From Sabellastarte sp. h YS-2021 (Eukaryota > Annelida > Polychaeta > Sabellida > Sabellidae), in the NCBI GenBank assembly GCA_964017235.1, contig OZ024938.1, forward strand, positions 45,544,332 through 45,608,331: a stretch of DNA of 64,000 bases. The letters are read 5' to 3'. A model generated the notes under the pieces. The model searched no databases. It saw only the letters and a program-made list of their open reading frames with translations, and was not told the origin of the DNA. Below are positions 1,717-24,076 of this stretch, one piece after another. Positions within the stretch are counted from its first letter, which is position 1. Every line of letters starts with the position of its first letter. Both the position numbers and the translations under genes were made by a program.

Positions 1717-2021
1717 AATTGAAAATTTTGATAACTTAAATGTAGCTTTCATACGCTACAAGCTTACCACATGGAACTGAAAAGAGTCCAACCCTGCCAC
1801 CCTGCTGTATTACAACTGAGGGGGTATGGTTCAAGATTGCAACAAGAAAAGGATGAATTGTGAAGAGTTCCATGAGAAGACAACCTGAGGCTGTGGCAAA
1901 CACTAAATGTCTATTTTTCTCGGATACTGATCAGGGCCTGTGGGCCGAGATCAGCATTCAGTTCCACATGGTAAGCTTGTAGCTTATAAAAGCTACATTT
2001 AAGTAATCAAAATTTTCAAAT
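1717..2021. repeat. Inverted repeat, 65-bp arms (fold-back)
   Basis: Positions 1717-1781 and 1957-2021 are near-perfect reverse complements, sharing words such as TTCAGTTCCACATGGTAAGC and AAATGTAGCTT. They are separated by about 175 bp of unrelated sequence. A shorter third copy of the outer word (cattcagttcacatggtagg) lies at about 1680. It could be a fold-back element or hairpin MITE; no clear target duplication was found. Confidence 0.65.
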
Positions 2022-2039
2022 TAGACAGATAATTTGAAC

Positions 2040-2240
2040 CTGGGAAATGATTTTTAGGTGAGTTGCGTGTAACCAACCCGTCTATTAGATTGATGTGTCT
2101 GACATCTGTCAGTCTGTCTGCCCGTCGACAATTTTGTTTCCAGACTCTAACTCGAAAACGCTTTGTCCGATCGAATTCAAACTTGACAGGGAGATAGATC
2201 AGCATCATAGCTAGGTTGCTTTTGAAATTGCAAATTTAAT
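2040..2240. repeat. Tandem repeat monomer(s), left of the DIRS-like insertion
   Basis: This carries the same words (gtctgtctgtc, tccagactctaactcgaaaac, acttgacagggagatagatca, agctaggttgct) as the array at 5700-6620. The two are separated only by the DIRS-like fossil, which therefore looks inserted into this array. Confidence 0.7.
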
Positions 2241-2941
2241 AAGTAAACAAAATTTTTATAAGTTAATACCCTATCCAATGGACAGGCAAGGCCCACCCAT
2301 CCAGCCCTGCTATCAGCTTACTAGGGGTCTTCATATGTTTACCAAGGTCTGTGTATGCTGGAGACAAGTTTGGTGGGATGTGGTTCTCACCAACCAGTCG
2401 TCTAGGTACAGGTGGATTCTTATACCCCTCTGTAAAGCCATCAGTTTGACCTCATTGGCCACCACTGTGAACAGGCCAAAGGGTAGGACTTTGAACTGGT
2501 AGGACCGACCCTGGATGTGAAAATGCATGTACTTCCTGGACTGACTGTGGATTGGTATATGGATACATGTAGAGAGTACAGGTACTTGCCAGATACATGT
2601 AGAGTCCTTCACCCTGGCTACATTTAAAAGACAATAATTGTCATTTCTTCTTCTTTGAACCCTTGGTCGGCTTCTGGGTGAAGTTTGAGGCTTTGCTATG
2701 ACCTTTCTGTCCTAGTTGCCGGTCTCGAATTTGCTTCCAGACCGGTGTAGTGGACTTCCCGTCTGGTAGCTGTGTTGATCTGCCACTTGAGGAAGCGTAT
2801 GAGTGGAAACGACCGGGCTTCCTGTGTGAACTGCCAGAAGAACGTCTCTCCTCAGTATGGGAGATTTCATCTTCAGCCTTGATCAGTAAATTGTCTGGAA
2901 ACAGTGAATGAAGAACCGGTGCTGTACATAAGGCAGTAAAG

Positions 2942-3314
2942 TAGTGTTGGTATCGAATAATAATATCTATATTGATATCAAACCATATTTTTGCTTCTGT
3001 ATCGATTGATATTGAAATATCGGGTCATGGGTGTTTTCCGGGAGAGAGCTTCCAAACCCTTTCCCGAGTTTTAGAAGTTTCTCGAAACATAAACAAATAT
3101 GGCATTTCCAGTTTAGTGGTAAGTGTAATTTGACAAAAAATGATAGGAAAACCAATACATTTCTCAAATTTTAAATTTTTTGAAAGGAAAACAGCTTAAT
3201 TGCGTCTGTTTAGTAGTATGTTTTGATATTGATATTGTACCCTACATTATCGATATCAGTATATTTAGCACAGCTCGATAAATATTTCAATATCGATAAA
3301 CAATACCAGCACTA
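2942..3314. mobile_element. hAT-type MITE, 373 bp, with 8-bp target duplication
   Basis: The terminal inverted repeats begin TAGTGTTGGTATCGA on the left and TAGTGCTGGTATTG on the right (reverse complement). The element is flanked on both sides by the identical 8-bp word CAGTAAAG (2934-2941 and 3315-3322), the duplication length of hAT transposases. The inside is AT-rich with many ATCGAT-like words and no coding potential. It lies inside the DIRS-like fossil, so it is younger than that insertion. Confidence 0.85.
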
Positions 3315-3584
3315 CAGTAAAGGTATCTGGCTTTACTCCACTACGTATGAACTCCAGGTAGCTGTCTACGTGCCAGAGTGAGATTAGCCATGCTGATAAA
3401 AATTCCCTCTGAGAGATCCTGCATAGTATGCTGCAAGGCTTGAGAGATTGACCGGTTGAAGGTCACCAAATATTCTAGTTCTTCACTGCCTGCTGCATTC
3501 TTTCTGCTGCCTTGCCCTTAGTCTTGTCCACACGTAGTGTCTTCAAGTGTGTAACCATAGGGTCCTGTACTTTTGTCAAACATC

Positions 3585-3878
3585 CCGTTCAACAGCCAGG
3601 GTCATATTGGGACAGGTCCTCAGCATTTACTGCTTTACTACCAATTATCGGGGGCCACGGTAGCAGAGTGGTAACACTCTCGCCTCCTACCTCTGAGGCC
3701 GGGGATCGATCCCCATACGGTCTCAAGTGGGAAAGCTGGTAGTTGCTTGCTGCTGGTCGGCAGTTTACAGTACACAACCCTAGCGAACTCTATGTACTGG
3801 TTTCCTCTGCCCTTCCAACTACCCATCGTGATATGACCTGTACAGTGTTGAAAGTGACGTTAAACCCCAAATAAACAA
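3585..3878 (+). mobile_element. tRNA-derived SINE (family A), with 14-bp flanking repeat
   Basis: A Pol III-type head begins near 3650 with an A-box-like TAGCAGAGTGGTAA and a B-box-like GGATCGATCCC. The family body follows (gctggtagttgcttgctg, tggtttcctctgcccttcc, gtgatatgacctgtacagtg, gtgacgttaaaccccaaataaa). The word TTTTGTCAAACATC flanks the insert at 3571-3584 and 3879-3892 and is a plausible target-site duplication. About 65 bp between the left copy and the SINE head is not seen in the other family members of this window and may be an older or transduced segment. It is not a functional tRNA gene. Confidence 0.75.
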
Positions 3879-5699
3879 TTTTGTCAAACATCTTGACAGA
3901 CCAGCAGTCTGGTTACACATCACAGACTGTTCCCGGAATGCTCTCTCCCACTGCCTTAAAGTGTCCTGGCTGAAAGGATGGGAGGCTGGGGCAGAGGGCA
4001 AACTACGTCTGGCCACTCTGCAGAAGGTGCTGTTCAACTTTGCCGGTTCCGGAGACCAGTTACACACTGTAGTTGAAGCAGATTTTTTTTGTCTGTGTGC
4101 ATGTCATACCACTTTGATGATCTGGGTGGCTTGACAAACTGGTCAGGTAGCAGTCCACCAGTCTCAGTGTTTCTAGAAGGGTACAAGAAACAGTCTGGTT
4201 CACTCTCTCAAATTTTCGACACAGCCACTCATCCACCAGTAGTTTGACAGACACTTTACCGGATGGCGTGACTCTGGAACCAGCAAATGGGTTATCATCC
4301 AGGGAAGAAGAAGTGCTGTCGAAATCAGGGATCTGATGGCAGCCCATGAATGATCTGACCCATCTTATTGTCTCTCTGTAGTTGGCTTCTTAAGAGAGGT
4401 CCAGGTCAGTAGCATTTTCAGGTAGTTCACCCTGGACGTTAACCCTAGCTGGTGCAGCCTGTTTCCTATCCAGCTCTGGCTCACTCTCAGATTCACCTTC
4501 AATCTCCACAGCTCTTCCACCGGCAAGTGACTGGTCTAGCTGAGCAGGATCATTACCGGTTGGCAGCACTTCAGGACCTGTACCGGGAGCCTGTAGAGGC
4601 TGGGTGGCTGTCCCTGCACCAGGAGCCTGTAAAGGCTCGGTTCCTGTCTGCACCGGGAGCCTGTAAAGGGTGGATGGCTACATCAGAGGTACCAGGACCC
4701 TGAACAGGGCGGGTAGCACACTTACTGACATCCTGCACAGCTTTCATACCGGGAACCTCTAGCGGAGGTTGGGTAGCAGACAACTGGACAGCTTTACCGG
4801 TGGTCTGTACAAGAGTGGGTCCGGTATCCTCAGTGACCAAACCAGCAGACACAACACTTGAAGATGCACCCGGATCAAAAAAGGGATTTTCTCTGGTCAC
4901 CACAGTTGAAGATCTCACAGGTTCTACCGGCACAAAAAACAACTTACTAAGAAGCAAAGCTTCAAGTCGCGAAAACCTCTCACTCCACTTGTTATCTAGA
5001 CTTCTCAGGTCTTCAGAGGTAGGTTTACTGCTGTGCTAGGAGAGCCATCAGAACGCTTATTCTTCTTGGTAGGTGTTGATTCAACAGAAGATGGCTCGTC
5101 TGAGTGTACTCGTCCCAACAGAGTAACATCTGAAGGGTCCCCGAGAGTGGGGGTAGCACTACTGGTAGTTTCTGTCATATTCTTCAGCTCTCCACGTTCT
5201 TTCCTGGATTTGTAGGTCAGGGTGGCCAATTGTTGAACTTGAGCAGGCGTAAAAGCCTTACAAATCTGGCATTCAAGTTTCTTGACACAGGGATCCTCTC
5301 CCACCCCCTTATCCCTACATCTGGCACACTTCTTGTGGTTGTTGAACAGAGCCATCACGTGCCCGCAAGCTCCTCTTTTCTGCCCAAGAGAAGACATGAT
5401 GATAGAACTCGTAGAAGTAAGGAAATGAACTTAAAAGTTCATAAAATGGATCAATTTGTTGATAAATTTCAAAAACGTCTCTGTAGAAAACACGTCTGTA
5501 CACTCCATGCGCCCCCCCAAAAAATGCTATGTCATGCTGTCTAGACAGGAAGGAAGTACAATGCGCCACCTAGTGAATGTACACTCCATGACCGGTCCTG
5601 CCGGTAGTATATACAGGATGTCTTTTCTGGCGTTTGGCGGGACCGGTCGCGCCGACTGGTAAAGCAATTGTCCATTGGATAGGATGTATTAACGCAATA

Positions 5700-6620
5700 A
5701 ACATGGCATAATTCTATCCGCTTATTTGTCCGTTTTTCATCTGTCAACATTCAAATTCAAACTTCACAGGGAGATAGATCACAATCATAGCTAGGTTGCT
5801 TTCGAAATCGGTGTAATTCAATCTGTTCGTTTGTCTATTTTATCTGCCAACATTTTAATTTCTGGAAGCTAACTCAAAAACACTTTGACCAATCAAATAT
5901 AAAACTTGACAGGGAGATAGATCACCATCATGGCTATGTTGCTTTCGAAATTGGTGTTATTCCGTCTGTTCATTTGTCAGTTTGTCTGTGTCAACATTTT
6001 AGTTTCCGGACTCTAACTCGTAAACGCTTTTTCCGATCGAATTCTAACTTGACAGGGAGATCGATCACCATCATAGCTCGGTTACTTTCGAAATTGGTGT
6101 AATTTTTGTCTGTCCGCCAACATTTTCGTTTCCAGATTCTAACTCAAAAACACCTTGTGCAATTGAATTCAAACTTGACAGGGAGATCGATCATCATCAT
6201 AGCTAGTTTCCTTTCAAAATTGGTGTAATTTCGTCAGTTTGTTCGCCCATTTGTCTGTCTGTCTGTCTGTCAACATTTTCGTTTAAGGACTCTAACTCGA
6301 TTACACCTTGTGCAATTGAATTCAAACATGACAGGGCGATAGATCACCATCGTAGCTAGTTTGCTTTCGAAATTGGTGTAATTTTGTCAGTTTGTTTGTC
6401 CACTTGTCTGTCTGTCAACATTTTTGTTTCCAGATTGTGACTCAAAAATGCTTTGTCCAATTGAACACAAAAAGTCACAGGGAAATATATCACCATCATA
6501 GCTAAGTTGCTGTTGAAATTGTTGTAATTCCATCCCTTGGTTTGTCCGTTTTTGTCTCCATCAACATTTCTGTTTCCACATTCTAATTGCTGGGGGCATT
6601 TCTGACCCTCTTGTTTAATC
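5700..6620. repeat. Tandem array of 126-152-bp monomers
   Basis: The anchor acttgacaggg (or close variants) recurs at about 5761, 5904, 6047, 6173, 6325 and 6472, with steps of 143, 143, 126, 152 and 147 bp. Each unit has a gtctgtctgtc-rich stretch, then ttccagactctaactc, then tagatcaccatcatagct. Monomers are diverged, so the array is old. A left portion lies at 2040-2240. Confidence 0.85.
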
Positions 6621-8534
6621 AATTGATTCATAAGCAATATTGGAGGTGTTGGGCATTGGCAGAGGTGTGCACTCTCTGAGTGCTCTTGCAGTAATGGTAA
6701 TCAAACACCACACCCTTTAAAATATGATTAAACCTGAATTTATTAGCAACAGATCTTTTCAGCTCCCTTCAATTTGAGGAGGGGTTTAGGATCCCCGATA
6801 AAAATTAAATTTCTTTATATAAGTTTTACATTGATATTTCAAGGCAGTAATACTGTGATAAAGTATATTGTATCAACTGACATTGGAGAAATGTCAAAAT
6901 TAATAAATAGTTACACAGAGGAGGAATAAAATGACTTAGTTGGAAGTATTGAATTCATTTGTGCATTAATATTTTTTGCATATTTTTTCTTTTCTTTACA
7001 ACAGTGCATAAAAAGTGATTTTTACAAATGAAAAGGAGAGTGCTTTTTCCATCAATTTGAAATAAAACCTATTCCCAGATGCTTTGCATGATGGGGTATG
7101 CCATATAATCAATCCAATGGAGTTGTTATCTATAGCCTGCGGTTATGTAGATGAAGTGTGACAAGAAAGGGTGTGAGATTTCCAGGGACTAAGATGCAGG
7201 AGTGTGCAGTAAATTGAGAGTATGAAGGGAAATGATTAGAATGTACCCAATATCACCACATACATTAGCTTTATGTGTTTGAGGATGAGATAGCCAATGG
7301 AGATTTTGTAGTCTTGCACAAGACCTTTGGTTCATTAGTTTTCTATGTATTTCTTTAGTACTGTTAGTTTCAGTTTACAATTAGCTTCAGTTTTGTACAG
7401 GCTATGCTTCTATATGCCAGATATAAGGATTTATGTTTTTGTCAAATATCGCAAATGTAGAGATGCTACTGGTTTTTTAGTTGAGTAGAAATATCATATA
7501 GATAGGAACAGTCAGATTATTGTTTGAACAGAAAGTATAAATAGTAAAGGACAGGAAAATATAGTTATTGTGACTTTGAATAATATACAGTGATAGTTTG
7601 CATAATAGCTCAACTTATAGGTTAAAATACAGAATATAGAATAGTGACATTGTTAAAACTGGGAAAGTGTAATCTGGAATTATAAGATTGACAGTATAAT
7701 TGAACATACTGATAGCAATTAAAAACAGTACATGATTAAAGTGTGACATTTCAAACCATGACATTAGTATCTGTAGGGTATATTTATCTAAATAAACCTA
7801 TGTGTATATATTCCATCACCATTAAACATTTAAATTAGTTAATGGTTGTTTTTCATTCAAACGCTTCCACTGCATATAAAATAGACAGATATTAATTCCA
7901 AACCTATTTTTGATTCCCCACCATTTCGCTTGTTTGGATTTACCTAAAACAGTAGCATTTTTATGGATGATACTTTTAAAATCATTTTACAAGTTAGTGT
8001 TTCGAAGTTTTTAAATTGGTACTATAGGGCAGTAAGACTGTGGCAAATTATGCTGTATTAACTTTTATTGTGATAGTATCAGAATTAATAAAATTTAATT
8101 AGAGGAATAGAATTACTTTTGTTGAAAGTATTTTATTCATTTGTGCACTGCTTGCCATTTTGGATATTTGTTTACTTTATAACAATACATGCATAAGTGA
8201 AAGTTTTATAAGTAAAAAAGAGAGTGCATTTTCCATTCATTTGTTTGTGATTTGGCTCTTCCCAGATGTTTTGCATGATGTGGTACATGGGTATGCAAGA
8301 TAAACAATGGAGTTGCTATCTTTAGCCAGTGATTTATTTACATGAAGTGTGATAAGAAAGGGGGTGTTTTCCAGTGACTGAAGGACTAAAATGCACAGCT
8401 GCTTGCAATAACATTACTCTGCACTATTACAACAAAGATCATGATATATAGAGAGTGAATTATCTTCAAACTTGAACACCAGAGTTTGTATGGTAGTGTG
8501 TGCATGTGGTAAACTAGATGGTTGAAGTTTCTAA
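6621..8534. repeat. Gene-free AT-rich stretch with a diverged direct duplication
   Basis: No gene is recognised. Segments at about 6820-7220 and 8000-8400 are related in direct orientation. They share in order ggcagtaa-actgtg, attcatttgtgca, agagtgc-ttttccat, cccagatg-tttgcatgatg, caatggagttg-tatct and atgaagtgtga. Spacing is about 1.18 kb and identity is visibly well below 90%. This may be an old duplication or two copies of one dispersed repeat. Confidence 0.6.
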
Positions 8535-9130
8535 TAGGGCTGTTCCACCTTGGCGATAATGCTTTACAATAGGCTTACATCCATGTGAATTGTCAGTTCA
8601 GAAGGTGGAGCTTTTCAATTGTAATAATCATAAAGCCATCGTGTAGGAAGCTATGGAACTTCCACAGTCTGTCCGATTGGATGCATTCATAAGTCCATTG
8701 GGAACAGTGTACAACAGTAATAAACTGTTTGTAATTATCGCAAACTGCTCCTTATCAAATCCATATCACCTTAAACCCATCTTAAACCTAGCTTTCACTC
8801 ATAAAATCACCTTTTTGACCTTACAGTGATCTTAAACATATCTTAAAAGTCACAAAGCAACATTTTCCATGTTACAGTGATTAAGCCTATCTTTTCCCAT
8901 CTTAAATCTATCTTTAACGTTTGTAAAGCTATCATAAACTATCATGACTTATCAAACTTTTTGGGAACCTATGTGGTAATCTCAAGATCACTTGTAAAGT
9001 TATCAGGTATTAAACCTATCTTTACCTATCTTAAACCTATCTCAAATTACACCTAGGGATTGTAAATAACTTATTTTTTTCCAATCAGGAGGCAGGTTTA
9101 TGATTGGATCACCAGAATGGAACAGCCTTA
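8535..9130. mobile_element. Harbinger-type MITE, 596 bp, TAA target duplication
   Basis: The left end reads TAGGGCTGTTCCACC and the right end, reverse-complemented, TAAGGCTGTTCCATT. Both are flanked by TAA (8532-8534 and 9131-9133), the duplication made by PIF/Harbinger transposases. The CTGTTCCACC core of the terminus is shared with the autonomous Harbinger at 47709-52674, although the rest of the termini differ. The inside is non-coding, with many degenerate copies of TATCTTAAACCTATCTT between 8760 and 9060, possibly subterminal binding sites. Confidence 0.75.
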
Positions 9131-9133
9131 TAA

Positions 9134-10160
9134 AGGTCATCCCACATATGAGTTGTTAACCAGGCAACACCACAAGTACTTAGGACTAATTCATTATCAT
9201 GTAAAGCTCTTTTCAGTATCCAGTATTTTGTGGGTTATCAGATGGCAGTTCAAATCATGTCTGTTCCTTGTGTGTTTATGAATGGGAGAAGCAAATGAAC
9301 AAAAAAAAAATGGAGTTGAGAAATATAAAAAAATGGATTTAACATAAAAAACAAAAGGCAACTACAGAGGTTAGATAAATTTTTATACTTTTGAATGTGT
9401 CAAATGCTATTGTTCAGAACTTAATAAATATACAATTAGTTATTCTGCCGCTGAAATTTTAGATATTGTAATTAAAAATATTCTACTAATATATTTTATT
9501 ATGTAATGTTCTGTGTTATTTTTCTGATGGAAAAGCTGGTGTATTTATACTGAAGTGTTTCAATCACTTGTGTTATCACTTCAGTTATTTTTAGTTTATT
9601 TCTGAATGTCATCATTAGATATTCTATATTCTGGTTATTGTATATACAATCATCTGTGGTAGCTTCATGTTCACATTTTCACCTATCCTGCAAAATGTAA
9701 AATGTGTCTATAACCTCACTCGTTCCACCTCATTCCAAAAGTATCATTCTGAATTTTTCATTTTGGTAGGGCTTTAACACAGGTATTGTTAAATTGTAAA
9801 TTATTGAGTACTATTAGGGATGTTAAATGTTTATGTGTCTCATATTATTGTCATTTCTCACTTTATTTGCCATCCCCTACTTTATTTTTCTCTATTGTCC
9901 AGGAGGATGAAACTACCACAAATAATTGTAGCATATGGATAATTCTGAAAAACCATTTCTGGCATATGTCATTATGTTGGTCATTTTTATTATATACATT
10001 AACTTAAACTTTTTATGTCAGCTGACTTGTCAGTCAGCTGACATTATGGCATCACTCTGCGGTGTCCGCATCCGCATATGGGTTCGCATGAACAACTTCT
10101 CCTCCAAAACTACAAGGCCTAGAGACATGCTGTTTTTTTTAAAGGATACTTTATCTATCA
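9134..10160. other. Gene-free AT-rich stretch
   Basis: No gene, RNA or repeat family is recognised. There is a short A-run at 9300 and an imperfect palindrome (tcagctgacttgtcagtcagctga) near 10018. Short open frames at 9786-10207 are AT-rich and resemble nothing known. Confidence 0.4.
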
Positions 10161-10894
10161 AGGATGAAAAGTGCAACTCAAAAACTATTGCATTTAGAGA
10201 ACTTTGAATAAATAGGTTATTCAGCTTGTTTTAGCTCATTGCATAGTCGAGTAATAGCTACCTTGAGGTTATCACTGTTGAGTAAATTGCGTCTATCTTC
10301 AAAACTGTTGCATTAGAGTATTTTGTTAAATATGTTTTTCATGTACTTTTCCGGTTGCTCATTGCATAGCTGAGTAACAGTTAATCTCAGGTTCTCACTG
10401 TTGAGTAAATCAGTTGTATCTTGGAAACTATTGCATTTAGAGTATTTTGTTTTAATATGTTGTTCACCTACTTTATGGGCGGCTGTAACATAGTGAAATT
10501 ACAGACCTGTAAGTCATGGCACAGCTAAGCAATAGCTACATTCAGGCTCTCACTGTTGGGTAAATCAGTTGCAACTGGAAAACTATTGCATTTAGAGTAT
10601 TTTCTTTAAATATGTTGTTAACCTTAGCTTTCTGGTCAGCTATAACGTAGCAAAGTTGAAGACTTGTAGGTCATTACATAGCTGAACAATAACCACTTTG
10701 AGGCTTTCTCTGTTGATTACATCAGCTGTAACTATAACTATTGCATTTAAAGAATTTTATTTAGAGTATGTTATTCATCTACCTTTGGGTCAGTTATAAC
10801 ATAGTAAAATTACAGACCTGTAGCTCATTGCATAGCCGAGTAATAGCTACTTTGAGGTTCACACTTCAGTAAATCAGTTGTAATTTGAAAACTA
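10160..10894. repeat. Tandem array of 120-155-bp units
   Basis: The phrase aactattgcattta recurs at about 10183, 10303, 10425, 10580, 10735 and 10888. The first steps are about 120 bp and the last three about 154 bp; the longer units carry an extra ~32 bp (taacatagtgaaattacag-like). The array ends abruptly at 10894, where it joins a 147-bp satellite monomer in mid-word. Confidence 0.8.
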
Positions 10895-11029
10895 TTGCAA
10901 AAGTGCTTATAATTCACTTATTATTGGCCCTAGAGATTGGAAATGTGAAACCAATCTGTAGGAAATCATGGGCTAGGAATCTTTTGATGTTGTCAGATTT
11001 CACCTTGGACACCCTCCTTCAAAGTTAAA
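10895..11029 (+). repeat. Older 147-bp satellite monomer, left half of an interrupted copy
   Basis: This is a diverged plus-strand monomer (aaaagtgcttataattcactta...). It breaks off after ccttcaaagttaaa at 11029, exactly where the inverted Helentron-like element begins, and resumes at 13127 with caaggataggcaaa. Joining the flanks restores the normal monomer word order. Confidence 0.8.
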
Positions 11030-13126
11030 CTAGACCTAGCGCATCGGAGAACCGATGCAAATTGTATCCACCGTAAAGACAATGCACCAAAACCTCTAGG
11101 ACCAATAATGAGCAAGTTATAAGCACTTTTAGGTTTGGCTGTCCTCATTTGACCTTCAAGGAGGGGCCCAAGGTCAAATCTGGCCACACCAGAAGATTCC
11201 CAGAGCATGATTTCCTATAGGTTGGTTTACCATCCCAAACCTCTAGGACCAATAAGAAGCGAGTTATAGGCACTTTTACCTTTGGCTATCCTCGTTTGAC
11301 CTTGAAGAAGGGGCCCAAGGTCAAATCCGACCACGCCAGAATATTCCCAGCCCATGATTTTCTATATGCTGGTTTACTATTCCAAACCTCTAGGACCAAT
11401 AATAAGCGAGTTATAAGCACTTTTAAGTTTGGGTGTCCTCGTTTGACCTTGAATAAGGGGCCCAAGGTCAAATCCGACTTCACCAGAAGATTCCCAGCCC
11501 ATGATTTTCTATATGTTGGTTTACTATCCTAAACCTCTAGGATCAATAATAAGCGAGTTATAGGCACTTTTACCTTTGGCTGTCCTCGTTTGACCTTGAA
11601 GGAGGGGCCCAAGGTCAAATCCGACCACACCAGAAGATTCCCAGCCCATGATTTCCTATATGCTGGTTTACCATCCCAAACCTCTGGGACCAATAATAAT
11701 CGAGTTATAAGCACTTTTAAGTTTGGCTGTCCTCGTTTGACCTTGAATGAGGGGCCCAAGGTCAAATCCGACATCACCAGAAGATTCCCAGCCCATGATT
11801 TTCTATATGTTGGTTTACCATCCCAAACCTCTAGGACCAATAATAAGCGAGTTATAGGCACTTTTACCTTTGGCTATCCTCATTTGACCTTGGAGGGGCC
11901 CCAAGGTCAAATCCGACCACGCCAGAAGATTCCCTGCCCATGATTTTCTATATGGTGGTTTACCATCCCAAACCTCTAGGACCAATAATAAGCGAGTTAT
12001 AAGCACTTTTAAGTTTGGGTGTCCTCGTTTGACCTTGAATAAGGGGCCCAAGGTCAAATCTGACTTCACCAGAAGATTCCCAGCCCATGATTTTCTATAT
12101 GTTGGTTTACCATCCCAAACCTCTAGGACCAATAATAAGCGAGTTATAGGCACTTTTACCTTTGGCTGTCCTCGTTTGACCTTGAAGGAGGGGCCCAAGG
12201 TCAAATCCGACCACACCAGAAGATTCCCAGCCCATGATTTCCTATATGCTAGTGTACCATCCCAAACCTCTAGGACCAATAATAAGTGAGTTATAAGCAC
12301 TTTTAAGTGTGGGTGTCCTCGTTTGACCTTGAATAAGGGGCCCAAGGTCAAATCCGACTTCACCAGAAGATTCCCAGCCCATGATTTTCTATATGTCAGT
12401 TTACCATCCTAAACCTCTAGGACCAATAATAAGCGAGTTATAGGCACTTTTACCTTTGGCTGTCCTCGTTTGACCTTGAAGGAGGGGCCCAAGGTCAAAT
12501 CCAACCACGCCAGAAGATTCCCAGCCAATGATTTCCTATATGTTGGTTTACCATCCCAAACCTCTAGGATCGATAATAAGCGAGTTATGAGCACTTTTAA
12601 GTTCGACTATCCTCGTTTGACCTTGAAGGTCAAATCTGACCACATCAGAAGATTCGCAGCACATGATTTCCTATAGGTTGGCTTCACATTGCAAACCTCT
12701 AGGACCAATACTAAGGGAGATATAGGCACTTTTAAAGTCGGCTATGTGGGTTACTTCGGCACTCCGTGGATAACCTTGAATTAGGAGCTTCAAGCTCAAA
12801 TGTGTGCAAGGTTGTAGAGGACATGTATATGTGTCATACATATCACCTATGAAGAGATTCCACCTTCTACCTATGAGGAAGAGCCAGTAGAAAAATGTAG
12901 ATTATTTTCAAAGAAATGCCCGTGGCGGCCATCTTGTTTTTCAGAATGAGGCTATTTTCCTTCCCAGAGAAGCTTACCCCCCAATGAAGATATCCTGCAA
13001 ATTTGGTGAACCTAGCTGCTGTTGTTTTCTTCTTAGAGCATTAACGCCGAAAATCTCTCTACGCGCGGCGGCAGCGGCGTAGCGGACGCTAAACCAAAGT
13101 ATCCACCGGATGCTTCCAGTGGATAC
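11030..13126 (-). mobile_element. Complete non-autonomous Helentron-like (HINE/pearl-type) element, about 2.1 kb
   Basis: In element orientation (minus strand), the 5' end at 13126 reads TATCCACTGG, followed by a roughly 360-bp unique leader with a GC-rich stretch (gcggcggcagcggcgtagcg on plus), then about 11 satellite monomers, then the 3' tail with the 18-nt hairpin (11041-11058) and CTAG at 11030, followed by T. Inverted GTATCCAC/GTGGATAC words sit near both ends, as in Helentron subterminal inverted repeats. The 5' leader recurs at 25937 and 26388, and the 3' tail recurs at 1243-1291. The element splits an older satellite monomer, which fixes both ends to within a base or two. No coding capacity. 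Confidence 0.8.
11095..12750 (-). repeat. 147-bp satellite core of the Helentron-like element, two-monomer alternation
   Basis: The anchor gtttaccatcccaaacc or a variant recurs at about 11219, 11366, 11514, 11660, 11808, 11953, 12099, 12246, 12394 and 12541, with a diverged copy at 12675. Monomers broadly alternate between a form with gaataaggggcc...cttcacc and one with gaaggaggggcc...ccacacc or ccacgcc. That suggests a two-monomer (about 294 bp) higher-order unit, unlike the four-monomer unit at 1-1240. Confidence 0.85.
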
Positions 13127-13435
13127 AAGGATAGGCAAATTTAAAAGTGCTTATAACTCGCTTATTATTAGTCCTAGAGGTTTGAAATGTGGAACCAACC
13201 TATAGAAAATTATGGGCTGGGAATCTCCTGTTGTGGTCAGATTTGACCTTGGGCCTATCCTTCAGGTTAAAAGAGCATAGCCAAACTTAAAAGTGCTTAT
13301 AACTCACTTATTATTGGTCCTAGAGGTTTGAAATGTGAAACCAACCTATAGGAAATCATGGGCTAATAATCTTCTGATGTGGTAAGATTTGACCTTGTGC
13401 CCCTCCTCCAAGGTCAAATGATGAGAGCCAAAAAG
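13127..13435 (+). repeat. Older diverged 147-bp monomers, right of the nested element
   Basis: About two plus-strand monomers, with tgaaatgtg(a)aaccaacctatag at 13185 and 13330, continue the monomer interrupted at 11029. They are more diverged than those inside the element, so the host array was there first. Confidence 0.75.
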
Positions 13436-13640
13436 TGATTATAACTTAAGGAGTCTCAGCCTCTATGTCTTTTATTATTGCTTCTACAGGTTTACTATGT
13501 TCGGGGATACACTGCCAGGTTGCAATAAAAGTGAGCAGCATAACTCTAGCTAAATTAACAATATTAGTTAATTTTTAACAGAGGCAAAATTATCTAAATA
13601 AAGTATATTTACCTTTTAGAAAAAAAGGATTTTTAGAAAA
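13436..13640. other. Short unassigned spacer
   Basis: AT-rich junction between the 147-bp satellite and the 47-bp palindromic satellite. No gene is recognised. Confidence 0.4.
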
Positions 13641-15695
13641 GTAAGGATTTGCAGTTTCTGTGAAAGTGACGCGTCCTTTTCAGAAAAGTGAAGATTTGCA
13701 GTCCCTGTAAAAAGGACGTGTCCTTTTTAAAAAAATGAAGATTTGCCATTTCTGTGAAAAGGATGCGTCCTTTTTTCAAAGTGACGATTTGCAATTTCTG
13801 TGAAAAGGACGCGTCCTTTTTAGAAAAGTAATGATTTGCCCTTTCTGTGAAAAGAACCTTTTTAGAAAAGTGAGGATTTGCTGTTTCTGTGAAAAGGACG
13901 CGTCCTTTTTAGAAAGTAATGATTTACCCTTTCTGTGGAAAGAACCTTTTTAGAAAAGTGAGGATTTGCAGTTTCTGTGAAAAGGACCCGTCCTTTTCAG
14001 AAAAGTGAGGATTTGCTGTTTCTGTGAAAAGGACGCGTCCTTTTTAGAAAAGTGAGGATTTGTAGTTTCTGTGAAAAGGACGCGTCCTTTTCAGGAAAGT
14101 GAGGATTTGCAATTTCTGTGAAAAGGACGCGTCCTTTTTAGAAAAGTGAGGATTTGCTGTTTCTGTGAAAAGGACGCGTCCTTTTTAGAAAAGTAATGAT
14201 TTGCCCTTTCTGTGAAAAGAACCTTTTTAGAAAAGTGAGGATTTGCAGTTTCTGTGAAAAGGACGCGTCCTTTTCAGAAAAGTGAAGATTTGTAGTTTCT
14301 GTGAAAAGGACGCGTCCTTTTCAGGAAAGTGAGGATTTGCAATTTCTGTGAAAAGGACGCGTCCTTTTTAGAAAAGTGAAGATCTGTAGTTTCTGTGAAA
14401 AGGACGCGTCCTTTTCAGGAAAGTGAGGATTTGCAGTTTCTGTGAAAAGGACGCGTCCTTTTCAGAAAAGTGAAGATTTGTAGTTTCTGTGAAAAGGACG
14501 CGTCCTTTTCAGAAAAGTGAGGATTTGCAATTTCTGTGAAAAGGACGCGTCCTTTTTAGAAAAGTGAGGATTTGCTGTTTCTGTGAAAAGGACGCGTCCT
14601 TTTTAGAAAAGTAATGATTTGCCCTTTCTGTGAAAAGAACCTTTTTAGAAAAGTGAGGATTTGCAGTTTCTGTGAAAAGGACGCGTCCTTTTCAGAAAAG
14701 TGAAGATTTGTAGTTTCTGTGAAAAGGACGCGTCCTTTTCAGGAAAGTGAGGATTTGCAATTTCTGTGAAAAGGACGCGTCCTTTTTAGAAAAGTGAAGA
14801 TCTGTAGTTTCTGTGAAAAGGACGCGTCCTTTTCAGGAAAGTGAGGATTTGCAGTTTCTGTGAAAAGGACGCGTCCTTTTCAGAAAAGTGAAGATTTGTA
14901 GTTTCTGTGAAAAGGACGCGTCCTTTTCAGAAAAGTGAGGATTTGCAATTTCTGTGAAAAGGACGCGTCCTTTTTAGAAAAGTGAGGATTTGCTGTTTCT
15001 GTGAAAAGGACGCGTCCTTTTTAGAAAAGTAATGATTTGCCCTTTCTGTGAAAAGAACCTTTTTAGAAAAGTGAGGATTTGCAGTTTCTGTGAAAAGGAC
15101 GCGTCCTTTTCAGAAAAGTGAAGATTTGTAGTTTCTGTGAAAAGGACGCGTCCTTTTCAGGAAAGTGAGGATTTGCAATTTCTGTGAAAAGGACGCGTCC
15201 TTTTTAGAAAAGTGAAGATCTGTAGTTTCTGTGAAAAGGACGCGTCCTTTTCAGGAAAGTGAGGATTTGCAGTTTCTGTGAAAAGGACGCGTCCTTTTCA
15301 GAAAAGTGAAGATTTGCAGTTTCTGTGAAAAGGACGCGTCCTTTTCACAAAAGTGAAGATTTGTAGTTTCTGTGAAAAGGACGCGTCCTTTTCAGGAAAG
15401 TGAGGATTTGCAATTTCTGTGAAAAGGACGCGTCCTTTTTAGAAAAGTGAAGATCTGTAGTTTCTGTGAAAAGGACGCGTCCTTTTCAGGAAAGTGAGGA
15501 TTTGCAGTTTCTGTGAAAAGGACGCGTCCTTTTCAGAAAAGTGAAGATTTGTAGTTTCTGTGAAAAGGACGCGTCCTTTTCAGAGAAGTGAGGATTTGCT
15601 GTTTCTGTGAAAAGGACGCGTCCTTTTTAGAAAGCGAAAATTTGCAGTTTTAAGGAAGCGTCCTTTTCACAAAAGTGAAGATTTGCCGTTTCTGT
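13640..15695. repeat. Satellite of about 47-bp units with an 18-bp perfect palindrome
   Basis: More than 40 units each carry AAAAGGACGCGTCCTTTT, a perfect palindrome with a central ACGCGT, followed by agaaaagtgaggatttgc and agtttctgtg. A minority type lacks the palindrome centre (gaaaagaacctttttag, 42 bp). That type recurs at about 14196, 14614 and 15032, exactly 418 bp apart, which equals eight 47-bp units plus one 42-bp unit, so there is a nine-unit higher-order repeat. The left edge (13640-13800) is more diverged, as expected for array edges. The array ends about 130 bp before the duplicated fucosyltransferase block. Confidence 0.95.
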
Positions 15696-16002
15696 GCATT
15701 CTTATGCACCAAACTAGGGTAAATGTGGGAAATATTTATAGCCTTTTGCAGCAAAAGTATCAAAATGCTGAATTTTTATGCCTAAAAGGGACACTCTGAT
15801 TTTTCCCTTTTAAATCTGAGAGCAGTTCATTTAACAACCATAAAATACAATAATAAATGAGATCCGTGGTTTAGAAGGGACTTAGAAGAAAAGTTTACTT
15901 CCGGGGAAAATTTCACATTACACCTGTTCACGGTTCACGGTATAACGAACTGTGTACTTAATTGTTCTTGTGCGTTGTTTACTTCTGATACTCTATGACA
16001 AC

Positions 16003-16026
16003 ATGAGGAGAATTGTCGAGGTCTGA
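16003..16026 (+). promoter_or_regulatory. Upstream mini-ORF (7 codons) before fucosyltransferase copy 1
   Basis: ATG AGG AGA ATT GTC GAG GTC TGA lies 16 nt before the main ATG, and the same sequence precedes copy 2 (22891-22914). If the transcript includes it, it could damp translation; this is inference only. A TATA-like TTTATAAAAC lies between it and the main ATG, so transcription could also start downstream. Confidence 0.35.
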
Positions 16027-16042
16027 GTATTGTTTATAAAAC

Positions 16043-17095
16043 ATGTTTCCGTCTATCAGACAGCTTTGTTGTTGTTTTAAATGTAACAGAATAATATCTG
16101 CTTTCAGAAATAAAACGATATTTACACGAGATACTTTGTCAAAACTCTTAAAGTATGTTTCTGCAGTTATAAAAGTACTTCAGAGAGTTTACATGCTGGT
16201 GATTTATATTTTATTGTTTTTCATATGTGGGATTTACTATGCAAATGAACTCAGGCATACTTCCTTCATTGGGCCCCGTTTGTACTATGGGAATTCCCAG
16301 ATAATTCACAGAGGCTCAGGGAAATTGGACCAGTCCTGTTGTTACATCACCCATATGATACGTGGTAGGAGATGGCTTGGGAATACATTATTTGTGTATG
16401 CTTCATTTCTTGGCACTGTCACTCAGAATAACTACACACCAGTACTACACCATGATACCACCTTGTCAAAATTCTTTGACACAAGGATACTTTCCGGCCT
16501 GGTGAATGAATCACTGTTTAATACCATTGATTTCAAGTACAGAGGCGAGCCAGGGGCGATTAAGTTTGACCATGACCTGGTGCACAAAAGGCCCACAGAA
16601 AACCTTTCATTGGAAGGTTTTTTCCAGTCTTACTATTACTTTGATCACATAAGAGACACCATCAGGAGAGAGTTTCAATTCAAGGAGATGTATCAGTCGA
16701 AGGCGAAGACTTTTTTAAAGAGGGAAACCGGCCGTATGAACCTCACCTTATGGCACAATGTCCTGAAGATAGGCATCCATGCAAGAAGAGGTGATATGTT
16801 GAACAATGGAAACCGTAAGTTTGGATTCCTTACGGCAGATGAGCATTATTTTAGGAAAGCAATGGATGTGATGAGAGAAAGATACACAAAAGACTGGATA
16901 CTTTTGTGGGTCATTGTTTCAGTAGATATTCCTTGGTGCAGAAGGAATATAAAGCCGCTTCCGGGTGAATTTGCTGTTTTCTCTAATTATGATCCAGCGA
17001 CGGACATGGCTGTTTTAACCTACTGCGATCATGTGATCTTATCAACCGGATCATTTGGCTGGTGGGCTGGATTTCTAGCAGGCGGGGATGTGATC
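16043..17095 (+). CDS. GT11 alpha-1,2-fucosyltransferase-like, 3'-truncated copy joined to retroelement
   Basis: Codons 1-351 match the intact copy at 22931 except for three residues (W/R, G/S and T/A differences, copy 1 first). A type II signal anchor lies at about residues 49-69 (VYMLVIYILLFFICGIYY). The family's HxRRGD motif appears as IGIHARRGDML at about 245-255, and the second GT11 motif as STGSFGWWAGFL near the end. The last 30 codons of the intact copy are absent; at 17096 the reading frame passes without a stop into Ty3/gypsy protease-RT sequence. Both core motifs remain, but loss of the C-terminal strand-helix segment and addition of a foreign tail make normal activity doubtful. It may be transcribed, since 216 bp of 5' flank came along. 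An assembly artefact must be excluded. Confidence 0.8.
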
Positions 17096-20000
17096 AAGGG
17101 CAAACACTACAAGCTGAGATTTCAAGTGGTACCATTGCGTCATGCCCAAAAGCCACTGCTGTCAGCAAATACCTGTGAACATTTAAAATTGCTAACTGTT
17201 AATGTGAATATGTCAGAGAAAATAGAAAGCCTCTCAAAGGAAAAGATTCTCCACAAGTACAAAGATGTGTTTGAGGGTCTAGGCTGTTTCAAGGGAGAAT
17301 ACCACATTCAGATAGATGAGAATGTGAAAGCAGTGCAGCATGCTCCCCGGCGCATTCCTGTGGCAATTCGAGAGGAACTGAAACTGAAAATCGATAAAAT
17401 GGTAAAAGACGGCATTCTAGCTAAAGTAACAGAGCCTACAGATTGGATCAGCAGTCTTGTAGTAGTGAAAAAGCCAAGCAAACTGAGGATCTGCATTGAT
17501 CCAAAGGATCTGAACAGAGCTATTAAGCGTCCAAATTATCAGATGCCCACAATAGAAGAGGTTTTGCCACGCCTCAGGAAGGCTAAGGTTTACTCTGTTC
17601 TTGATGCCAAAGATGGATTTTATCATGTGAAGCTCGATACACCTAGCAGTTATCTCACAACCTTCTGGACTCCCTTTGGAAAGTATCGATACAAACGTCT
17701 TCCCTTTGGAATATCATCAGCGCCCGAAGAGTTCCAGAGGAGACAGCATGAAGCTCTAGAAGGCCTCAGTGGAACTGAGGTGATAGCAGATGATATCCTT
17801 GTCTATGGCAGTGGTGATTGCATGGAAGAGGCAATCTTGGACCATGACAACAATCTCACAGCAGTTCTGGAACGTGCTTGACAAATAAACATGAAATTCA
17901 ACAAGAATAAGCTCAAGTTTAGAGTCACAGATGTACCTTACATGGGACATTTGCTCACATCAGATGGGCTAGCACCAGATCCCATGAAGATAAGCGCAGT
18001 AAAAGACATCCCAGAACCGAAGAATGTCAAGGAATTGCAAAGGTTCTTGGGTTTCATAAATTATCTGTCAAGATTCTCACCTCATTTGTCAGAAATCTGT
18101 GAGCCACTTCATCGGCTTACTGACAAATCGTCACCATGGCTATGGGACAAACCACAACAGCAGGCGTTTGACACAGCTAAAAATCTAGTTACAGTGCAAC
18201 CTGTGCTAAAATTCTATGATGTCAAACAAGAAGTAACACTCCAGTGTGACTCCAGTGAGAAGGCTCTTGGTACAACCTTGATGCAGAATGGACAGCCAGT
18301 AGCCTTTGCATCACGTGCATTATCCAAAACAGAGCAAGCCTATGCTCAGATAGAAAAGGAACTGCTGGCAATTGTTTTTGGATGTGAGAGGTTCAGCCAA
18401 TACCTTATTGGTAAGGAAGCCATAAATGTAGAGAGTGACCACAAGCCCCTAGAAGTTATTTTTCGCAAGTCACTCCTGTCTGCCCCACGACGTCTACAGA
18501 GAATGCTTTTAAGGCTGCAACGCTACAACCTTAAAGTCACATACAAGCGCGGAGCTGAAATGTACATTGCTGACCTGCTGTCAAGGGTACAAGCTCCAAG
18601 AATGAAAAAGGCCAATGATACATTTGAAGTCTTCTGTTCTGAACTCCAGAACATTAATCATGCAGAATATGTACGTGTCTCAGATCAACGTCTACAGCAA
18701 ATCAGAACACATATTCACCAGGACTCTACTTTGCAGTCCCTAATAGGAGTTATTCTGAGTGGATGGCCTGAAAGAAAGGAGGACACTCCAGTGTGCATTC
18801 GGGAGTATTGGCCAATTAAAGAAGAGCTCACTGTCCAAAATGGTATAATATTTAAAGGACACAGAGTGGTAATTCCAAAAGCTATGCGTCCAGAAATGCT
18901 GCTCCGCATACATGCTAGTCACCTTGGAATTGAATCATGCCTTAGAAAAGCAAGAGACATTGTATATTGGCCTCACATGAACTTTGAAATCAAAGAAGCC
19001 ATATCAAAATGTGAAGCATGTCAAGCTTATGCCTCCAACAACAGGAATATGCCATTGCAAACCCCACAACTACCAAACAGGCCATGGAAAAAGGTTGGAA
19101 TAGACATCTTCACCCTCAAAGGAAAAGATTATCTGGTGACAGTTGACTATTTTTCAGATTATTTTGAAGTTGATCCACTGAAATCTACCTCAACTGCAGC
19201 AATAGTGAAGGCACTAAAACGTCACTTCAGCACTCATGGCATACCAGATGAGATAATATCTGACAACGGACCACAGCTAGTGAGTGAGGAATTTGCAAAA
19301 TTTGCAAGTGACTGGGAATTTAGTCACATAACATCATCACCTTATTACAGCCGTTCTAATGGTAAGGCAGAATCTGCAGTGAAAATAGCAAAGAACCTCA
19401 TCAAGAAATGCAAGCATGAAGGAAGTGACATATACAAAGCGCTTCTGGATTGGAGAAATACACCAACTGTCAATATGGACAGCAGCCCAGTCCAACGACT
19501 GATGTCCAGAAGAACTAGGAGTACACTGCCAATGTCTGAGAGTCTACTTCTACCAAGTGTAATTCCAGATGTTAAAACAAAAATTGAACACAAACGCAGA
19601 CTCACAAAACAACAGCATGACAAAAGAGCTTGCAATCTACCACAGCTTGAAATTGGTCAACCAATTTATGTGAAGTCAAAGGCAGGTCAAGAACACAAAT
19701 GGGAAAAAGCCATTTGTAAAGACAAATTGTCAGACAGGTCCTACATTGTAGATGTGAATGGAGAAAGCTACAGAAGAAATAGGACACACTTGAAAGAAAG
19801 CAATGGTCCTGTACAGAATTCTCCAGCAAAGAGTACAACAAGAAAAGATGAAAAGACTAAGGAAAGTGTGAGCAACAGCACAATAAACAACACAGAAGCC
19901 CCAAGAAGAAGCAGCAGGACATCAAAACCTGTAGAAAAATATCAGGCTGGATTTGCTTAAGGACAAAATCTTAAATTTATTCAAAATTTACCAAATGCTA

Positions 20001-20500
20001 AAACTGGGCAGAATAAACCCATGCATTGGTTTTTAAGGGAAGGTAGTCTACCCTTACCCTTAAGTATTTGGTGATAATGTTATGTATACTGTGTAATGCA
20101 TGAATGAATAGAATTCTTTGAAACAGAGACTCATTAAAGACACTCTTCATATTAAATCTTTTTTTAAAAAAGTAAAGAAAAGGGAAGTTGCTAAATTTTG
20201 TTTCAATTTAAAAGAAGGGAGATGTTGGTGTGTCACACTTTATTTCAACAGTAATTTATGTTGGTGTGGGACAGGCTAATTGTCACAGTTTAAGTTCAAC
20301 AGTAATTTAGATTAATGGTTTCCTCTGTGCATGTGCTAAGGGTGAGTCACCAGGAAACTGCACACACAAAGTTCTATGCATGTTTTATAAAATACTTCAG
20401 TTGTTGCTTTGTCACTGGTTAATAAACAGCTTCTTCTGTAACACTTGTTAAATACTTTTACTTTAGTTTGATGCAGCAAACAAACTAAAACACAAATATC
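17096..20500 (+). mobile_element. Ty3/gypsy LTR retroelement, partial fossil
   Basis: Directly after the fucosyltransferase block comes gypsy pol sequence, in order: the end of the protease-RT linker, reverse transcriptase (fingers word KDGILAKVTEPTDWISSLV, catalytic IADDILVYG), RNase H, an H2C2 integrase zinc finger (HASHLGIESC...CEACQ) and a DDE integrase core (VGIDIF, ISDNGPQL). It ends with an integrase tail, and a polypurine tract (AAAAGAAGGGAGA, 20210-20222) leads into a probable 3' LTR starting TGTTGGTGTG. Gag and a 5' LTR are not in the window. The element is broken, with about one break inside the coding part besides the missing front. Coding sequence is otherwise well kept, so it looks young. 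The exact 3' end is uncertain because no second LTR is available for comparison. Confidence 0.85.
20223..20500 (+). repeat. Probable 3' LTR of the Ty3/gypsy fossil
   Basis: It starts with TGTTGGTGTG right after a polypurine tract and contains an AATAAA polyadenylation word near 20422. The end is a guess (terminal CA near 20500), since no 5' LTR is present in the window. Confidence 0.5.
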
Positions 20501-22284
20501 ATTATGCACTGACTTTCAATTGTGTCAGTAATTACTGTAAACCTTTAAAATAAGGCAAACTTGAGAATAAACAGCAGCATGTTGTTATAAAGACTGATGG
20601 GCTATTCTGACAAAAGTTAAATCCATTAAATCTTCACACTCACTTCAGCTGTCTGTTCATCATTATGTGTTTACATTGTCACTCTAACAATAACAAAGCT
20701 TCGTTATGAACCTATTAGCTATGACTCATTTATTGCCCAAAAACATCAAGGTCCGCTTTTTAGCTTCACTTTCTGATATATATTTTTTTAATATGATCTA
20801 TGGCTCTCATACCAGATATTTTATAAAACAGGCCACATTTTATAATTCCCAAGGTCTTTGTGAATAAAATTATATTCAGTGTTTTTTGTGAAAATTATTT
20901 TAAAGGGTTACTATTCTTCAAAATTTACTATATTTTTTCTTGTAATCAACTTAACTAATGTATTTATATACATTGAAGATAATACTGAAGTGCTGAAGTA
21001 ACTGAATATTGATAATTCACTCAGAATATTTTATGATATGCCTTACACAATAATAGTTTCTGCTATATTATGTTTCGAAAGTATTGGATGAACTTTCTCA
21101 TCAGAGGCTGGAGTTTATCAGGCAAAGTTCCCCCCTGAAGTACTAAATTTTGGTGCAAATACACCAGTGGTTTGCACCTGTCCACCTGCACCTGTGCACC
21201 GGTGCATTGCACTTTTTAGTGGTTAATAGTATGTAAACCAATGAAGGGGTGGTTTTTTTTTAGTTTTTTTTAGGTAGTAATACTGATTTTAGTAATCTGG
21301 TTACAATGGGGACCTTAAAGGTGAATATACTTAATACTGTCAAAATATAAAAAGTTGGATTATGAAATCTTGTAATGCAATAGATAAGTATTTTTTCTAT
21401 TTATATGCAACAAAAGTATGACGTTTTCCATATTTGTGCTGTAAAATTGACAAAATCCAAAATGTGGCGAATTTACATCCACTGGCGAATTTACATCACT
21501 TGCTCTACTTACGAAAAGTCCCGGATTTGCCAGACAGAAGAATAAGAAAGGATGTCCATTCTAGCTTTTTTATACGATTTCTATGGTGTGGAGACTACAG
21601 TTGTATATTGAATTTAAGTTTTAGTAACTCCCAGATACCCTCCCACAAATCTCTCGGTGCTTCCGTATGTTTTGAATGGAATATGGCGCCCATATGACAG
21701 AGGTCTGTCCAAAGGGACCATTCCATAGGCCACGCCCACTTCCTGGTTTACGGTATTTTAGTTGTCTCCATGTCAGGCTTTGTCTGACAAACAAATCGCG
21801 AAAATGGCGGGAAATTAAACGTAAACATTGAGTATTTCAAGATATAAGATAAATGAAACGTATTGTAAATGATTGAATGTAGCATATAATAAGCAATTAT
21901 GTAATAAAGTATATTTGCTTTATTGTGACAAAAATTAGAAAATAAATAAACAATTTATTGATCAAAACAAATCCTCGTGTATTGCAGTAAAATGTAAACA
22001 ATGGCAGCTTGGGGACATATATATATACATTTCAGACATTTTAAAGTAGGTAGGATTGATGATATAATTTTTTTATTAAATTATACTTTGGTTTTATTTT
22101 GTTCCATTACCAGAAAGCAATAATATTTACAAATATGTCCCTAAAAATGACCACGTTTTTGTAATTCAAAATGGCGCCGATGAAAACCGGAGGAAATGAT
22201 TGGTTGTTGCTATTGTAGTAAACAGGATGTTTGCCGATTTGCGGTATTTTGATTGACACCGTGGAAAGGTCCAGTAGAATATTG
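20501..22284. other. Gene-free stretch between retroelement and second fucosyltransferase
   Basis: No gene is recognised. It includes a run of CACCTG-like words near 21172-21215 and an 87-codon open frame (21434-21697) that resembles nothing known and has no conserved partner here. Confidence 0.4.
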
Positions 22285-22439
22285 TAGAAATAAAGTCCTC
22301 TGTTTTGTGATTTATAACCCCAGATAATTCACAAATTTCCGGCGAATAACAGACGAGCGCGTAGCGCGAGTCCGTTATTCGCCGGAAAGTTGTGAATTAT
22401 CTGGGGTTATAAATCACAAAACAGAGGACTTTATTTCTA
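22285..22439. mobile_element. Palindromic MITE, 155 bp
   Basis: This is an almost perfect palindrome with arms of about 70 bp (AGAAATAAAGTCCTCTGTTT... and its complement) around a GC-rich centre (gagcgcgtagcgcgag). Both ends abut TA, so the insertion could be a TA-duplicating (Tc1/mariner-like) fold-back element. The assignment to that superfamily is weak. Confidence 0.7.
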
Positions 22440-22714
22440 TTATAAAGACCGCTTTCATTTATTAATCCATAAATATTATTGTAAATATGTTTCTGTACAC
22501 ACCTAGTTGTGGCACTACATTTTGTCTGTATCGTTTATTTCTCTATTATCGGCGATCGTCCAGTTATTGCCTCAGATAATTGTACGCAGAAATATGCGCA
22601 GTGCATTGTTTTTTGTAGTCTGCGCACTTCCGATCTTTATAATATAAACCGAAAACACTTTATTTAATATATATCCAAAGTTATCGATATATGTACATTA
22701 TATTTCTTAAACTA

Positions 22715-23983
22715 TCATTTAACAACCATAAAATACAATAATAAATGAGATCCGTGGTTTAGAAGGGACTTAGAAGAAAAGTTTACTTCCGGGGAAAATT
22801 TCACATTACACCTGTTCACGGTTCACGGTATAACGAACTGTGTACTTAATTGTTCTTGTGCGTTGTTTACTTCTGATACTCTATGACAACATGAGGAGAA
22901 TTGTCGAGGTCTGAGTATTGTTTATAAAACATGTTTCCGTCTATCAGACAGCTTTGTTGTTGTTTTAAATGTAACAGAATAATATCTGCTTTCAGAAATA
23001 AAACGATATTTACACGAGATACTTTGTCAAAACTCTTAAAGTATGTTTCTGCAGTTATAAAAGTACTTCAGAGAGTTTACATGCTGGTGATTTATATTTT
23101 ATTGTTTTTCATATGTGGGATTTACTATGCAAATGAACTCAGGCATACTTCCTTCATTGGGCCCCGTTTGTACTATGGGAATTCCCAGATAATTCACAGA
23201 GGCTCAGGGAAATTGGACCAGTCCTGTTGTTACATCACCCATATGATACGTGGTAGGAGACGGCTTGGGAATACATTATTTGTGTATGCTTCATTTCTTG
23301 GCACTGTCACTCAGAATAACTACACACCAGTACTACACCATGATACCACCTTGTCAAAATTCTTTGACACAAGGATACTTTCCAGCCTGGTGAATGAATC
23401 ACTGTTTAATACCATTGATTTCAAGTACAGAGGCGAGCCAGGGGCGATTAAGTTTGACCATGACCTGGTGCACAAAAGGCCCACAGAAAACCTTTCATTG
23501 GAAGGTTTTTTCCAGTCTTACTATTACTTTGATCACATAAGAGACACCATCAGGAGAGAGTTTCAATTCAAGGAGATGTATCAGTCGAAGGCGAAGACTT
23601 TTTTAAAGAGGGAAACCGGCCGTATGAACCTCACCTTATGGCACAATGTCCTGAAGATAGGCATCCATGCAAGAAGAGGTGATATGTTGAACAATGGAAA
23701 CCGTAAGTTTGGATTCCTTACGGCAGATGAGCATTATTTTAGGAAAGCAATGGATGTGATGAGAGAAAGATACGCAAAAGACTGGATACTTTTGTGGGTC
23801 ATTGTTTCAGTAGATATTCCTTGGTGCAGAAGGAATATAAAGCCGCTTCCGGGTGAATTTGCTGTTTTCTCTAATTATGATCCAGCGACGGACATGGCTG
23901 TTTTAACCTACTGCGATCATGTGATCTTATCAACCGGATCATTTGGCTGGTGGGCTGGATTTCTAGCAGGCGGGGATGTGATC
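22715..23983 (+). repeat. Segmental duplication, copy 2 (fucosyltransferase block)
   Basis: Partner of 15827-17095 at offset 6888 bp. It is probably the source copy, because the gene continues intact past the right edge. Confidence 0.9.
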
Positions 23984-24076
23984 TATATGAAGAATTGGAT
24001 CAGAAATGGCACAGAACTGGACAGAATTAGTGACATGAGGACATATTTTTATCCACATTGGACAGCAATAACTTAG
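22931..24076 (+). CDS. GT11 alpha-1,2-fucosyltransferase-like protein, 381 aa, intact
   Basis: Single-exon gene. It has a short cytosolic head rich in Cys, a signal anchor at about residues 49-69 that would place the enzyme in the Golgi as a type II membrane protein, a stem, then a GT11 catalytic domain. Visible motifs are IGIHARRGDML (family HxRRGD, donor-binding loop) and STGSFGWWAGFL, close to the STFGWW motif of alpha-1,2-fucosyltransferases. The tail YMKNWIRNGTELDRISDM follows the usual GT11 ending. The family transfers fucose from GDP-fucose to terminal galactose in glycans. The start is the first ATG after the mini-ORF and is shared with copy 1. Length is normal for the family. Acceptor specificity cannot be told from sequence. 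Confidence 0.9.
   Translation: MFPSIRQLCCCFKCNRIISAFRNKTIFTRDTLSKLLKYVSAVIKVLQRVYMLVIYILLFFICGIYYANELRHTSFIGPRLYYGNSQIIHRGSGKLDQSCCYITHMIRGRRRLGNTLFVYASFLGTVTQNNYTPVLHHDTTLSKFFDTRILSSLVNESLFNTIDFKYRGEPGAIKFDHDLVHKRPTENLSLEGFFQSYYYFDHIRDTIRREFQFKEMYQSKAKTFLKRETGRMNLTLWHNVLKIGIHARRGDMLNNGNRKFGFLTADEHYFRKAMDVMRERYAKDWILLWVIVSVDIPWCRRNIKPLPGEFAVFSNYDPATDMAVLTYCDHVILSTGSFGWWAGFLAGGDVIYMKNWIRNGTELDRISDMRTYFYPHWTAIT

Follow-up and report, generated by a model that had tools for sequence, protein, structure and literature searches.

Chimeric genes can arise by tandem duplication when a breakpoint falls inside a gene, as described for Drosophila yakuba (PMC5460883). False (haplotype) duplications have been reported to occur in genome assemblies (PMC9516828). 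Both descriptions bear on the locus presented here, in which the 5′ part of a GT11 fucosyltransferase gene runs into the pol region of a Ty3/gypsy retroelement. A literature search for fucosyltransferase-retrotransposon fusions found none, which does not prove their absence. The locus lies within a stretch of 64,000 nucleotides (C19:45544332-45608331), which is referred to as the window; positions without a contig name are those of the window. The in-frame GT11/pol hybrid described in an initial annotation of this DNA is confirmed as an observation. We consider it likely that the chimeric reading frame marks the point at which the two units of a recent tandem duplication meet, and that the truncated gene copy is probably inactive and decaying.

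Two gene copies and a chimeric reading frame

The complete gene (copy B; 22715..24076, plus strand) consists of a 5′ flank and a single-exon GT11 ORF of 381 aa (22931-24076). Its Pfam match to Glyco_transf_11 scored 111.6 bits, which is above the cut-off, and covered profile positions 111-297 of 298, reaching the profile end. A hydrophobic N-terminal stretch comprises residues 49-67. Copy B has the appearance of an ordinary GT11 gene with a single exon. The second copy (copy A; 15827..17095, plus strand) shares with it 216 bp of 5′ flank and the first 351 codons, starting with the ATG at 16043. The copies, 1269 bp each, align with 22715-23983 as the counterpart of copy A, without gaps and with a start-to-start distance of 6888 bp. 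They differ by exactly three substitutions (16373, 16496 and 16886), in full agreement with the initial annotation. Residues 352-381 are absent from copy A, which had correctly been described as lacking its last 30 codons, and its Glyco_transf_11 match stops at profile position 272 of 298, indicating an incomplete GT11 C-terminus.

The GT11 part of copy A is free of stop codons and frameshifts, and its frame continues across 17096 into Ty3/gypsy pol until a stop codon at 17879-17881. The resulting chimeric ORF (16043..17881, plus strand) encodes 612 aa, of which GT11 residues 1-351 are followed by 261 aa that begin at the end of the protease region and stop inside the reverse transcriptase (RT). 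Pfam detected both Glyco_transf_11 (E 6.6e-30) and RVT_1 (E 1.3e-13) in this ORF.

The genome (1.786 Gb; 1,785,957,881 bp in 647 contigs) was searched with positions 15827-17300; the best candidates were scored, so that repeat counts are lower bounds. Only one of the 42 matches listed, the window itself, spanned the join, which marks the join as a feature beyond chance. The pol piece was matched in full at no fewer than 24 further places, one of them with 75% identity and the other 23 with 88-100%, and in part at no fewer than six. The remaining matches listed were copy B and at least ten places sharing only the start of the 5′ flank; this start (15827-15924 and 22715-22812) is a dispersed repeat of about 70-100 bp with 88-96% identity. 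Among the matches listed, the GT11 coding part was found at two places, both in the window. The 3′ end of the GT11 gene occurs once.

The retroelement and its full-length upstream copy

Sequence 17096..20492 (plus strand) is the 3′ part of a Ty3/gypsy element with RT, RNase H, integrase and a 3′ LTR (20223-20492), the latter containing an AATAAA at 20421. The domains follow in the order RT-RNase H-integrase, and their Pfam matches are distributed over two separate ORF pieces. An upstream copy at a distance of 32 kb is full-length (about 5.0 kb), with two 270-bp LTRs bounded by TG...CA and a 5-bp target site duplication (TSD), CAAAT, on both sides. The earlier statement that the retroelement lacks its front thus applies to the copy in the window but not to the upstream copy, in which the front survives.

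An open frame of 413 codons in the upstream element extends to the end of the locus examined. Its sequence can be read as gag with zinc knuckles followed by a protease with a D-T-G motif; the Pfam matches of this frame to gag and zinc-knuckle domains were below the cut-offs and no protease domain was named. According to this reading of the upstream ORF, the tail of the chimera would begin past the D-T-G, so that no protease active site would be joined to the gene. In this respect, the initial description of protease-RT sequence behind the join would need correction. The pol stop codon at 17879-17881 is identical in the upstream copy, from which it follows that pol was interrupted before the duplication. 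The LTR pair of the upstream element differs by one substitution in 270. Such a difference does not separate the events by LTR age, and their order rests on anatomy.

A probable tandem duplication of 6888 bp

Comparison of window 15600-30000 with four upstream stretches revealed that window 17095-22719 recurs 32 kb upstream at C19:45528260-45533836 in the same order and orientation, and on this recurrence of the sequence between the gene copies the reading as a duplication is based. It includes the DNA between the 3′ end of the retroelement with its TSD CAAAT and the 5′ flank of the gene (20493..22714, plus strand). Over about 5.6 kb, the sequence between the gene copies differs from its upstream counterpart by five substitutions and at 13 gap positions. 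Piecewise, 72 of 72 positions were identical, 5197 columns contained three substitutions and seven gap positions, and 326 columns contained two and six, respectively. A palindromic repeat near 22364-22397, which varies in length between the units, was left out of the divergence counts. The surrounding region (near 22282-22644) is a dispersed palindromic repeat with 2313 first-look candidates in the genome and differs in length between the units.

The repeat is arranged head to tail on both sides of the junction, the flank being present upstream and downstream and the gene as copies A and B. The second, downstream unit occupies 17096..23983 (plus strand), and the first unit, which is split by an inserted element, comprises C19:45528261-45533836 and window 15827-17095. 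The duplicated unit hence extends well past the range 15827-20500 given initially. Substitutions amount to 5 in about 5580 for the flank and 3 in 1269 for the gene. These values are equal within error (Fisher p = 0.17), so that one event fits the gene and the flank copies, and both values agree with the proposal of a young duplicate. Taken together, the two units differ by eight substitutions in about 6.85 kb.

The join at 17095..17096 (plus strand) is most likely the internal breakpoint of the 6888-bp duplication, in line with the earlier view of a join at the DNA level. Flank comparison showed that it is seamless, with a shared sequence of just 1 bp (C). The codons at this point are TAC AAG in the upstream retroelement, ATC AAG in copy A and ATC TAT in copy B. 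The join preserves the phase, the frame of the chimera being that of the retroelement's own ORF upstream. The one-in-three odds initially assigned to an accidental frame match are supported as well. These comparisons establish the anatomy of a 6888-bp duplication with 1 bp of microhomology.

A 26.3-kb element inserted in the first unit

Window positions 1..15827 (plus strand) are occupied by the right-hand part (15.8 kb) of an element that measures 26.3 kb and has inverted terminal repeats and the TSD CATT. The whole element (C19:45533837-45560158; 26,322 bp) is located in the first unit, between the retroelement flank and copy A. The upstream flank ends with TATCATT and is followed by AACTGCTCTCAG, while copy A is preceded by CTGAGAGCAGTT and continues with CATTTAAC. 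At copy B, the corresponding site is uninterrupted and reads TATCATTTAAC. Half of this site lies in the upstream unit and the other half in copy A, separated by the element, with CATT on each side of it. Base 15827 is common to the start of copy A and the end of the element. What had been regarded as the edge of the duplication is really the end of the insertion, due to which the duplicated sequence of copy A seems to start there.

A second copy of the element (C5:113317883-113346611; 28,729 bp as measured between its ends) shares the terminal sequences and carries the TSD CACA, and other copies end at the same base as at 15827 or within a few bases. A search with the interior (window 2800-3800), in which 40 candidates of 8314 were scored and 43 matches were listed, found it over the full 1001 bp with at least 96% identity at 27 or more places including the window; conservation at the at least 26 other places was 96-99%. 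The layout of the element appears foldback-like. Tandem arrays of 47-bp and 147-bp units lie toward both ends of the copy studied here, and outside the arrays no ORF of more than 154 codons was found in the element. Broken retroelement remnants, which may be DIRS-like, are present inside the element at window 2334-5430 (minus strand); an RT piece among them gave a weak RVT_1 match (E 3.5e-5) below the curated Pfam cut-off.

Further repeats were noted downstream of the gene. In the region of 25845-26748 and 27493-28355, just behind it, a 451-bp unit is repeated twice at 99%, and two directly repeated sequences of about 338 bp, spaced by 525 bp, show one difference. A 43-bp tandem array is located at 49540-49883.

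Conservation of GT11 and coding potential of copy A

A protein search identified 24 GT11 places in the genome, two of which are copies A and B. Of the remaining 22, the nearest has 40% identity, most are single open frames, and four are clustered at C21:21202357-21220016. The residues missing from copy A (352-381) include Y352 and W377. In an alignment of all 22 paralogs, W377 is kept in 21, with one gap, and Y352 in 20. When copy B was aligned separately with 16 of these paralogs, W377 was invariant. It also aligns with a tryptophan in all five bacterial relatives, which were confirmed among 21 stretches matching the pattern and served for C-terminal conservation only. A PDB sequence search with copy B gave no useful relative (two matches, best E 0.52), and it is conservation that suggests a role of the GT11 C-terminus.

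At residue 111, adjacent to the LGN motif, 17 of the 22 paralogs have R and three have G, while two show a gap. Copy A carries R111W, as opposed to R or G in 20 of 20 aligned residues. Residues 152 and 282 vary among the paralogs and are uninformative on the direction of change. All three differences between the copies are non-synonymous, an outcome with a probability of 44% in the absence of constraint, which hence does not show decay and says little on selection. Owing to the loss of the C-terminus with W377 and Y352 and to R111W, the product of copy A would be predicted to be inactive. The initial suggestion that a retroelement tail is attached to a Golgi-anchored enzyme finds no support, given the loss of a segment containing a near-invariant tryptophan and the changed R/G site.

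Proposed history of the locus

In the ancestral order, a full-length Ty3/gypsy element would have been followed, after a flank of about 2.2 kb, by the GT11 gene. A segment of 6888 bp, from the protease-coding part of the element to codon 351 of the gene, would then have been duplicated head to tail, presumably by end-joining or replication slippage with 1 bp of microhomology. This may have set the first 351 codons of the gene directly before pol, by chance in frame. Subsequently, the 26.3-kb element would have inserted into the upstream unit, about 215 bp before the ATG of copy A; alternatively, it might already have been present on one of two alleles, followed by unequal recombination. If transcribed from the shared flank, an RNA of copy A could end at the AATAAA at 20421. 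The predicted 612-aa product would combine an N-terminal membrane anchor, a GT11 domain without its C-terminus and a broken RT piece. Copy B would carry the function, while copy A may be a decaying duplicate whose protein is most likely inactive.

Alternative explanations

The initial annotation had named misassembly as a serious alternative to a recent event, and with good reason, as the arrangement fits two haplotypes, with and without the 26.3-kb insertion, placed end to end, in which case the join at 17096 would be unreal. The expected result of such an artefact is haplotype 1 (element, flank, insertion, gene) followed by haplotype 2 (flank, gene, 3′ end), which is the order found, and it would also account for the small total difference between the units and for the single 3′ end of the GT11 gene. 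However, overlap-based assembly joins need long overlaps, whereas the join shares 1 bp, and no runs of N were found in the window or in 36 loci examined. The low divergence between the units would also speak against an artefact if the animal were a bivalve, as allelic differences would then usually be larger. For Dreissena polymorpha, which has a similar genome size, a heterozygosity of 2.13% has been given (PMC9210306). Moreover, no third gene copy was present among the matches listed in the 647 contigs. On balance, an artefact is unlikely. A separate move of the gene fragment, by the inverted-repeat element or the retroelement, with landing beside a truncated gypsy copy, is so improbable as to be nearly negligible. 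It would explain why the start of copy A coincides exactly with the end of the 26.3-kb element, where other copies end as well or nearly so, and for this reason gene capture by Helitron-like read-through was considered. It was rejected as the retroelement flank and copy A, with a matching 4-bp TSD, together make up the site found intact next to copy B, and as the element has inverted ends on both sides. Furthermore, the GT11 coding part is confined to this locus among the matches listed, so that no element end listed elsewhere carries GT11.

A functional new gene, kept by selection, whose GT11 product is anchored in the membrane and carries a tail from the retroelement, is very unlikely. The open frame of 612 codons, the retained GIHARRGD and GSFGWWAG stretches and the shared 216-bp flank are compatible with it, but the C-terminus with W377 and Y352 is missing, R111 is replaced by W, and the tail, which excludes the protease D-T-G, stops within RT; three differences are too few for any selection test. 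There is likewise only a slim chance that a transcribed chimera is active to some degree, or acts dominantly on the intact enzyme, and represents an early host-retroelement fusion gene; if so, it would have been caught very early, with all parent sequences adjoining. Most likely, copy A is a young, non-functional chimeric ORF created by the tandem duplication.

Comparison with known systems

As the product of a tandem duplication, the locus offers a very young, traceable case of a host flank and 5′ coding part set in frame with pol. Since the parent sequences still adjoin, the DNA itself records the order of events. Should the arrangement segregate in the population, it would serve as a natural experiment on the fate of such chimeras.

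The retroelement resembles other Ty3/gypsy elements in its 270-bp LTRs with TG...CA ends, 5-bp TSD, RT-RNase H-integrase order and length of about 5.0 kb; unlike the norm, pol of both copies has the same in-frame stop. Near-identical adjacent gene copies are a feature shared with the false haplotype duplications reported for assemblies. In contrast to these, the join has a seamless 1-bp overlap, and an insertion bounded by a clean 4-bp TSD distinguishes one unit from the other. As in the chimeras described for Drosophila yakuba, a partial tandem duplication joins the 5′ part of a gene and its flank to neighboring sequence, whereas the partner here is a retrotransposon pol, with the frame happening to be kept. 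Judging by that description, partial tandem duplication is a known route to chimeric genes and no new mechanism is needed, which makes this locus a clean but ordinary example.
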